In this document: positions 51,540 through 53,363 of the stretch, one piece after another
How the letters are laid out: each line of letters opens with the position of its first letter
Position numbering within the stretch: the stretch's first letter is position 1
Assembly: GCA_903970285.1 (NCBI GenBank)
Contig: CAJCHN010000080.1
Span: forward strand, 1-64,000
Reading direction: 5' to 3'
Source of the DNA: Rhodanobacteraceae bacterium
GTDB lineage: Bacteria; Acidobacteriota; Terriglobia; Terriglobales; Acidobacteriaceae
DNA length: 64,000 nt
Position numbers and translations under genes: made by a program
Notes under the pieces: model-generated
Seen by the model: only the letters and a program-made list of their open reading frames with translations
What the model was told of the DNA's origin: nothing
The model's database searches: none

Positions 51540-51560
51540 CCTCCTTTCCCGTGTAAGGTG

Positions 51561-51589
51561 ACCATAAAGGAACGGTCGACCGCCGTCAA
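51561..51589 (-). promoter_or_regulatory. Sigma-70-type promoter of the short leader unit
   Basis: On the minus strand TTGACG (51584-51589), a 17-nt spacer and TATGGT (51561-51566) make the best consensus promoter in the window. Expected +1 is near 51554, about 15 nt before the short ORF. Confidence 0.65.
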
Positions 51590-51737
51590 GCATGGCTTCC
51601 GCTGCGCTGGCCCGGACCATGCCTGCGAGTACCGCTTTGCCTATCAGAAAACAGCGTCCAGACCCCTGCGTTTGTGTCACGCCGACCGGGAGAAATGCTC
51701 TGGCCCTGGCCCACCAAGTCGCGGCAGGCTGCCGCCG

Positions 51738-52955
51738 TCAGCCGCGCCGCGCCTCCGCCATGCGCGCGTAGAGCGCCTGGAGCTGCCGCACGCCGGCCAC
51801 GGCCTCTTCATGATCCACCGTCTCGGTCGCATCGTTCCATCCGCTTACCTCGCCCTGAGCGCTCAACTGCACGACGATCCCATCGCGCCGGCCCAGGATG
51901 TTCAGGTTGTCGAACAGCAACCCGTAGTTCACCTCCGGCTGCGGAATCAACCAGGCGATCTGGCCCCGTACCGGAGTCAGGCTCTGGTCCGTGAAGAGCT
52001 CCCGCGCCGCGTATCCAGTCGAGTGCAGAATCACCGGCTCGGGCAACTGCGCAAACTCCGACGGCGCATGAAATTCGCGGTGAACGATCCTGCCTCCGTT
52101 GAGCTGAAAGTCCTCGGTCAGCTGGTGCGCATAGGCGGTGATATTGAACATCAGGTCCGAGCGGCGGCGCGCCCATCGCGTAGGAAACGGGTGCGATCCC
52201 GCCGGCAGGTCCTCAAAACGTGGATTCAAATCGCGGATCCGGTCCATGTAGTACGCGAACCCGATCGGATCGTCGTCCCGGATCTTCTGCTCAGCCGCGG
52301 TGGGGTGCGGATCCGACAGCACATAGCGTTCGGTGAACTCGACCGGCTCGCCGGGCAGCCCCAGGAAGCTCTGGTAGTAGTGCCAGCTGGTCCGTGCCAT
52401 CTGCTCCCACTGCGCGGCGAAGCCTGGGGCCGCCGCCCTGGTCAGCGCAATGCGCGAGTCCGGCGTCCAGGAGCCGGTCGCTCGAAAGCTGCGTGTCTCC
52501 GACGGCCGATCCCTGGCATAGATCGTGACGGAACGCGCCCCGGCCCGCTGCGCCACGATTGCCGACGTCAGCCCAAGTGCGCCGCACCCCACCACCGCGA
52601 CCTCCGTCGTGGACGGATCGCGGCCGGCCAGCGCCAGGTCCACCGCCAAAGTTCCGCTGCCCCAGGAGAGCGACCAGCCGGAGCCGCCATGCCCATAGTT
52701 GTGCACGACCAGCTTGTCGCCCACGCGCTCCGCCTCGATGCGCGGCCCTTCGGCCCGAAACGGCCGCGTGCACACCGTTATCTTGAACAGCCGGTCCTCG
52801 CGCGCACGAATCGGGCTGAGCGTCGGCACCCGATCGTAAAATGGCAGCGCAGGCACCGTCGGGGCGGGGCTATGGGCAGGCGGATGCACGCAGCCTGCCA
52901 GCGCGGTCGCCGAGGCGAGAGCGGAACTCTGCTGGAGAAAATCGCGGCGCGTCAT
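51738..52955 (-). CDS. Exported FAD oxidoreductase, D-amino-acid oxidase family in circularly permuted order
   Basis: A 405-residue flavoprotein. The N-terminus MTRRDFLQQSSALASATALAGC looks like a Tat signal with a lipobox. Residues 64-72 (RPFRAEGPR) and 83-103 (VVHNYGHGGSGWSLSW) match the DAAO segments RPVRPQI and the PS00677-type signature, which are C-terminal in classical DAAO. The Rossmann dinucleotide motif VAVVGCGALGL comes afterwards, at 119-129, followed by RATGSWTP (158-165). The protein ends with the DAAO middle/late segment (HSTGY at 311, PVRGQI at 328-333, LGRRDG, then the helix EEAVAGVRQL). So the domain order is rotated. It probably oxidises an amine or D-amino acid in the envelope (inference). 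A weak TAAAAC lies 6 nt before the ATG. Confidence 0.8.
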   Translation of the reverse strand: MTRRDFLQQSSALASATALAGCVHPPAHSPAPTVPALPFYDRVPTLSPIRAREDRLFKITVCTRPFRAEGPRIEAERVGDKLVVHNYGHGGSGWSLSWGSGTLAVDLALAGRDPSTTEVAVVGCGALGLTSAIVAQRAGARSVTIYARDRPSETRSFRATGSWTPDSRIALTRAAAPGFAAQWEQMARTSWHYYQSFLGLPGEPVEFTERYVLSDPHPTAAEQKIRDDDPIGFAYYMDRIRDLNPRFEDLPAGSHPFPTRWARRRSDLMFNITAYAHQLTEDFQLNGGRIVHREFHAPSEFAQLPEPVILHSTGYAARELFTDQSLTPVRGQIAWLIPQPEVNYGLLFDNLNILGRRDGIVVQLSAQGEVSGWNDATETVDHEEAVAGVRQLQALYARMAEARRG

Positions 52956-53024
52956 GGCTTGGTTTTATCATGGGTCTGGATGGTGCAGCCTCTCCGTGGA
53001 CCGTGCGGTTCGCGGCCTCGGGAG

Positions 53025-53363
53025 CTAGTACCTCGGGATGGCCGGATCGATCGTGCGGCTGTATCCGTCGATCCCGCCGGCCAGCGACTGCACGTGTTCG
53101 AACCCCTCGCGGCGCAGCCACATCGTCACTGAGAGCGAGCGCATGCCATGATGGCAGAACACCACGATCGGTTGATCCGGGTCCAGTTCCGTATGCGCCC
53201 GGGTTGGAATCTCCGCCATCGGAATAAGCGTGGCACCGGCGAGGGTGGCCGTCGCCGACTCCCACGGCTCGCGGACGTCCAGAAGCAGGGGCGCTTCGGG
53301 TTTTCCGGTTGTTTCCAGGCGCAGCTTTTCAAACTCCTGAGGAGTAATCTCGGGTGAGAGCAT
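53025..53363 (-). CDS. Rhodanese-like sulfurtransferase
   Basis: A 112-residue single rhodanese domain of the GlpE/PspE size. The N-terminal pattern TPQEFEKLRL, LLLDVREPWE, and the active-site loop CHHGMRS with its catalytic Cys are clear, then GFEHVQSLAGGIDGY. The frame is open to 53480 but TATGCT ends 6 nt before ATG 53363, which fits the domain. It is divergent from the NtrC-type regulator over 64 bp. Sulfur-transfer partner unknown; the thiG gene downstream makes a link to thiazole sulfur conceivable but unsupported. Confidence 0.9.
   Translation of the reverse strand: MLSPEITPQEFEKLRLETTGKPEAPLLLDVREPWESATATLAGATLIPMAEIPTRAHTELDPDQPIVVFCHHGMRSLSVTMWLRREGFEHVQSLAGGIDGYSRTIDPAIPRY

Follow-up and report, generated by a model that had tools for sequence, protein, structure and literature searches.

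The closest described relatives of the protein analysed here are D-amino-acid oxidase (DAAO) and DASPO, represented by pig DAAO (1kif), human DASPO (6rkf) and the Rasamsonia (7ct4) and yeast (1c0k) enzymes. The chain of a canonical DAAO runs from the Rossmann motif through the RGQ motif and the substrate Arg strand to the HNYGHGG signature. All four elements are shared by a protein encoded in the 64,000-nucleotide stretch of DNA that we analysed (the window), and the body of this protein has the same fold (Z 18.9-21.3 over 248-255 residues). However, the identity over the aligned body is 20-21%, the window protein does not have the segments in the canonical order but is rotated, it has a Tat signal, and the position of Tyr228 is changed in most of clade A, the clade to which the window gene belongs. 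Canonical bacterial DAAOs (Streptomyces L155, Nocardia L156 and Acidobacteriota L158-L164) contain the same segments in the normal order and lie across a 100/99 branch from the permuted proteins.

Two other described systems are more distant. DadA belongs to the same broad DAO superfamily and would share with the window protein the electron transfer to the respiratory chain proposed for the latter, but it has the canonical order, and the window protein scores 21.8 bits on PRK00711, for which the cut-off is 383. The glycine oxidase ThiO has a related fold (1ng3, Z 15.4). Natural circular permutation is, to our knowledge, uncommon among enzymes whose cofactor fold interleaves two domains. Searches of the full-text literature, which mostly did not extend to subscription papers, did not turn up a permuted DAAO. 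A circular permutation between flavin enzymes is already published for PutA proline dehydrogenase and the MTHFR barrel (PMC3779223); that pair has a TIM-barrel fold, which is unrelated to the DAAO fold. What is new in the present protein is the chain order and the predicted location, whereas the fold and most of the catalytic residues are known.

The gene occupies positions 51738-52955, as an earlier note on this DNA had reported, and is read on the minus strand from 52955 to 51738, a strand assignment that was missing from that note. Its features are as follows.

51738..52955, minus strand: coding sequence of 405 aa for a circularly permuted DAAO-type flavoprotein (P0002), from the open reading frame and its translation; Pfam DAO PF01266 at 70.7 bits.
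52890..52955, minus strand: signal, residues 1-22, with an RRDFL twin-arginine motif and an LAGC lipobox; NCBIfam TIGR01409.
52623..52820, minus strand: moved segment, residues 46-111, equivalent to the C-terminal part of canonical DAAO; from the 7ct4 match and the HMM gain.
52764..52766, minus strand: Arg64, aligned with pig DAAO R283.
52683..52703, minus strand: HNYGHGG signature, residues 85-91; by direct reading.
51741..52622, minus strand: body, residues 112-405, equivalent to canonical DAAO 1 to about 268; from the fold match to human DASPO.
52572..52589, minus strand: GCGALG dinucleotide-binding motif, residues 123-128; 16-row alignment.
51960..51968, minus strand: RGQ motif, residues 330-332; 16-row alignment.
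51900..51902, minus strand: Asn352, aligned with pig DAAO Tyr228.

Direct reading also bore out the motif residues given previously, RPFRAEGPR at 64-72, HNYGHGGSGW at 85-94, VVGCGALGL at 121-129, TGY at 313-315, PVRGQI at 328-333 and GRRDG at 355-359. The chain runs from RPFR...HNYGHGG...SWG to the Rossmann motif and on into the RGQ...RRDG body. In a 16-row alignment the glycines of the GxGxxG motif (G123, G125 and G128) are invariant, the motif lying at residue 123 and not at the N-terminus; G331 and Q332 are likewise invariant and R330 nearly so. The best stretch for Pfam DAO covers residues 119-375 and profile positions 2-278 of 353, and the final part of the profile is therefore absent behind the body. 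A 524-aa open frame on the opposite strand (window 51558-53132, plus strand) is probably a by-product of high GC content.

The top solved-structure match, 7ct4, aligns with the protein as read in two separate pieces whose order is inverted: residues 60-108 of the protein match 7ct4 residues 324-372 (36.8 bits), and residues 110-336 match 17-242 (15.2 bits). When residues 46-111 were moved behind residue 405, a single collinear phmmer match to 7ct4 22-371 was obtained (48.9 bits). Whole-sequence scores against 7ct4 are near equal (54.7 unrotated and 53.4 rotated), so the benefit of rotation in this comparison lies in collinearity and not in score.

We assessed the effect of rotation on score using an HMM (length 325) built from 7ct4 and nine bacterial proteins, all ten of canonical order, and a cut point placed every six residues. 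The best single alignment of the window protein scored 77.5 bits as read and 133.3 bits (HMM 9-320 of 325) when the chain was cut before residue 112, at the Rossmann strand. Placing segment 46-111 after residue 405 adds 55 bits (from 78.2 to 133.3), while 300 shuffles of the moved segment gave a mean of 77.3 bits and a maximum of 79.8. Rotation also raised the scores of proteins of clade B (L016 from 142.4 to 210.8 bits, L136 from 134.7 to 194.8) and clade C (L125 from 102.5 to 165.0, L127 from 107.2 to 168.8). The scan reached its maximum at the Rossmann cut in five permuted proteins from three clades, and at cut zero in two canonical proteins that had not been used to build the HMM. In controls with the same HMM, a ThiO-like protein of the window genome gained nothing and a DadA-like protein gained 1.4 bits.

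These comparisons support, on sequence grounds, the proposal of the earlier note that the product of the window gene is a natural circular permutant of the DAAO fold. They show a front piece equivalent to the canonical C-terminal part, with its substrate Arg strand, HNYGHGG strand and last helix; as aligned, a short linker ties the former C-terminus to the former N-terminus at Rossmann strand 1, and the new termini fall in the loop that connects the last body helix with the Arg strand. A fusion of an unrelated N-terminal domain with a truncated DAO would agree with the start of the best Pfam DAO stretch only at residue 119, but the N-terminal segment matches DAAO C-termini when taken alone and completes the HMM once moved, and we regard a fusion of this kind as extremely improbable.

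We modelled residues 39-405 in the order as read with AlphaFold2, using an alignment of 81 rows (pLDDT 95.7, pTM 0.92). The body part of the model has the DAAO fold: model residues 77-360 (protein 115-398) match human DASPO 6rkf 2-264 with Z 21.3 and rmsd 2.6 over 255 aligned residues, and model residues 79-359 (protein 117-397) match pig DAAO 1kif 1-268 with Z 20.5. DASPO and DAAO are the nearest solved folds, other families of the superfamily reaching Z 16.3 and below. Strands 18-29, 34-40 and 43-49 and helix 52-73 of the model lead into the Rossmann strand at 80-84, and the last helix continues into Rossmann strand 1, which is the join that had been foreseen for the permutation. The sequential aligner left the first 76 residues of the model and the C-terminus of DAAO unpaired, as a permutation predicts. 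Folded alone (56 of the 81 rows), residues 39-114 gave a poor model (pLDDT 74.3, pTM 0.48), which had no match at Z 2 or above among the 33 chains aligned and is thus uninformative; the placement of residues 46-111 on the C-terminal part of DAAO comes from sequence alignment.

We extended the analysis to related genomes, searching 61 (the window's own and 60 relatives) at E 0.001. Matches were found in 25, and in 18 of these a family member aligns along most of the length. The 18 comprise G051, from another family, and 17 of the genus's 37 genomes, one of which has the gene split over two frames (G023, excluded from the alignments and the tree). The remaining seven matches are short or restricted to the Rossmann region. 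An internal deletion considered for G019 was rejected, the gap being a run of N in the assembly. A phylum scan at 1e-20 gave matches in 26 of 297 genomes (24 among the 257 good ones), and a single genome has as many as four copies. Three to four permuted copies per genome are present in G101, G302 and G326 (L137-L139, L151-L153 and L193), which belong to one Acidobacteriota family.

A canonical DAAO query, run on an equal number of phylum genomes (297), matched in 31. Eight of these have the normal order (L158-L165) and do not overlap with the 26 genomes that have the permuted form. The pieces matched in the remaining 23 are consistent with the inverted order; many of these genomes show both pieces in one frame, and some show the short C-terminal piece alone. 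One canonical-order DAAO-like domain (L165:1486-3660) lies in a 725-aa frame in whose second half Pfam finds nothing.

In a scan of public genomes the best 80 of at least 565 confirmed stretches were retained, the remainder of which may include canonical ones. These best 80 of at least 565 loci comprise 65 from Pseudomonadota, 12 from Acidobacteriota, 1 from Verrucomicrobiota and 2 unplaced, and all 80 have the order HNYGHGG (or HHYGHGG), Rossmann motif, RGQ, in 79 by pattern and in L116 by eye. The loci span three phyla. The permuted order is inherited in a family of Acidobacteriota, Pseudomonadota and Verrucomicrobiota, and the presence of the rotated enzyme in so many other bacteria identifies it as an inherited form and not a reading error. 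The window genome, with 151 contigs and 5.43% contamination, could be a source of an assembly or frame artefact. However, the same order is found in full-length ORFs of named isolates and in genomes of 1 to 10 contigs, relatives have it in open frames, so that a misread frame is not behind it, and the chance of an artefact is negligible.

The tree contains 56 rows: 44 permuted proteins, joined in canonical order, 10 bacterial canonical proteins and 2 eukaryotic ones. Of the 81 clade-A rows, 25 are included; L154 and L150 are one and the same protein. Seven clade-B loci are absent, L137, L140, L152 and L153 because of the cutting pattern, and L144, L145 and L147, in which the signature reads HNFGHGG with Phe for Tyr, because of the motif filter; in all seven the signature precedes the Rossmann motif. 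All 44 permuted rows lie on one side of the 100/99 branch and the 12 canonical rows on the other, and a single permutation event is therefore enough. Long branches lead to pig DAAO, L163 and 7ct4, clade B itself is weakly supported (68/79), and no branch separates the two eukaryotic rows from all others. A third, distant clade (C) consists of proteins from a Rhizobium plasmid and a Bradyrhizobium plasmid (27-29% identity), which are permuted and in which no signal was seen.

The tree by itself gives no direction to this event, but eukaryotic DAAO and the wider DAO family have the canonical order as well. The permuted form would have arisen once, when a tandem duplication or a fusion subsequently lost its outer parts. 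No second HNYGHGG occurs in any ORF of the screened loci, a copy that the earlier note had named as evidence against permutation, and tandem intermediates with two such motifs are likewise absent from those ORFs. The new N-terminus may later have acquired the Tat signal, one permuted clade being without a signal. Because permuted and canonical forms occur in one phylum, the timing and manner of the permutation can be asked of real sequences.

The earlier note had also assigned a Tat/lipobox-type signal. The twin-arginine part of this assignment is supported by NCBIfam TIGR01409, which the protein passes at 18.6 bits (cut-off 16.7), and by an RR pair in the expected stretch in 78 of the best 80 of at least 565 loci; the two exceptions are L086, at a contig edge, and L077, whose ORF starts within the signal region. 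Pfam PF10518, in contrast, scores 13.5 bits, below its cut-off of 22.7. Export is a prediction. R3, R4, L7 and C22 are invariant in the 16-row alignment. A lipobox is recognized by pattern in 48 of the best 80 of at least 565 loci and by eye in a few more; among the members in which none was recognized, those from Sphingobium, Bradyrhizobium and Xanthomonas have RR, except L086. The protein would bind FAD in the cytoplasm and be exported by Tat in the folded state, and that of the window genome would be lipid-anchored and face the periplasm.

We take Arg64 to be the equivalent of R283 of pig DAAO, the Arg that binds the substrate carboxylate, and Asn352 to be that of Y228, the substrate Tyr; HNYGHGG is a signature of the DAO pattern type. 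The Arg64 position is R in 81 of 81 clade-A rows. Six of the seven HNYGHGG positions are likewise unchanged in all 81 rows, position 86 being N in 78 rows and H in 3. At the Tyr228 position, where the window protein has Asn, the 81 rows include 42 with Ser, 13 with Asn and 3 with Tyr, and the LGG strand that follows is altered. Both rows of clade C have Tyr there, and the four examined from clade B have either Tyr or His. The carboxylate grip is thus probably kept in clade A while its partner is changed. With Tyr replaced in 78 of 81 clade-A rows and the LGG strand changed, D-amino-acid activity is not assured, and with Tyr in only 3 of 81 the substrate may differ.

In the designation 'D-amino-acid oxidase-like flavoprotein' of the earlier note, the term 'oxidase' is not established, given the Asn at the Tyr position and cytochrome c genes next to some relatives. 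A small c-type cytochrome ORF lies directly downstream in 8 of the best 80 of at least 565 loci, namely in 7 of the 8 Acetobacterales loci among them (Gluconobacter L121 being without one) and in L080. It starts 0-14 bases after the last sense codon, with the called ORF overlapping in L115, and Pfam confirms cytochrome c in the four ORFs examined, three of the eight and one that likewise follows the permuted gene directly on a Kozakia plasmid. The proximity of this gene in some relatives suggests a periplasmic dehydrogenase.

A permuted DAAO that is still an oxidase, using O2 and D-amino acids to produce hydrogen peroxide in the periplasm, would be consistent with the shared fold and the retained substrate Arg and HNYGHGG. 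In its favour, the examined flanks of the other 72 of the best 80 of at least 565 loci contain no ORF of that cytochrome group, and Tyr or His is retained at the Tyr228 position in the rows examined from clades B and C. However, the directly downstream cytochrome c gene in Acetobacterales and the loss of the active-site Tyr in most of clade A argue against this, and we consider an oxidase less likely. Less certainly than the export step, a D-amino acid or a D-amino-acid derivative held by Arg64 would be oxidized at the flavin and the electrons passed to the respiratory chain, in Acetobacterales via a dedicated cytochrome c. FAD binding, export and activity of the window protein are all predictions. 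Taken together, a DAAO-fold permutant that was made once, is exported by Tat and oxidizes D-amino acids or derivatives via Arg64 with electron transfer to the respiratory chain is a reading that we think probable. The more specific proposal of an undescribed, widespread permuted family that arose once and acts in the periplasm, after Tat export, as a dehydrogenase coupled to cytochrome c, with D-amino acids or peptides containing them as substrates, is put forward tentatively.

A cluster on a Kozakia baliensis plasmid (L126:1-12102) contains the permuted DAAO, cytochrome c, a DadA-like enzyme, a TonB receptor, two serine hydrolases, a prolyl-oligopeptidase-type protein and a CocE/NonD hydrolase. 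The DadA-like gene is separate from the permuted one and scores 361 bits, just below the cut-off. Such a cluster would be well equipped to import and degrade peptides that contain D-amino acids. PF00144 serine hydrolases and S9/S15 peptidases are found near several members, which is only a hint. No operon is common to the whole family in the loci examined, with genes called by a simple ORF rule.

In the window itself the gene is flanked on the same strand by rhodanese and ThiG genes, which would fit a permuted form of the glycine oxidase ThiO with a role in thiazole synthesis. A rhodanese gene also adjoins the gene of the nearest relative, G019 (L039), with more distant matches in two other loci, and no ThiH was found in the window genome. 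However, a ThiG relative is present in none of the 97 other loci compared (L039 covering only 1.9 kb on that side), and the permuted protein has a Tat signal and is not among the genome's five matches to the ThiO model TIGR02352. Moreover, the genome has a separate ThiO-like ORF of 339 aa in canonical order (L188:1180-2196, G000:C65; 238.5 bits, cut-off 250.8), the one that gained nothing on rotation. We therefore rejected a permuted ThiO as very improbable.

If export and the electron route are as predicted, the family would provide soil, plant-associated and acetic-acid bacteria with an extra periplasmic path for D-amino-acid-type substrates. With its free ends at a new place, it is also a natural starting point for DAAO-based biosensors. 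Three annotated plasmid members carry the name 'FAD-dependent oxidoreductase' only, and such generic names, together with a best Pfam stretch that covers part of the protein, hide the topology. A protein table for Asaia bogorensis cultures in PMC12502724 has an entry 'D-amino acid oxidase' (A0A060QKK3), which may or may not be of this family.

The clade-C gene has a berberine-bridge-type FAD enzyme on one side and a TPP enzyme on the other, as identified by Pfam for the neighbours in Rhizobium. The resulting plasmid trio of a FAD_binding_4/BBE oxidase, a signal-less permuted DAAO and a TPP enzyme is found at L125:4488-8714 in a clover Rhizobium and at L127:3375-7702 in a soybean Bradyrhizobium, and could yield an alpha-keto acid and then decarboxylate it.
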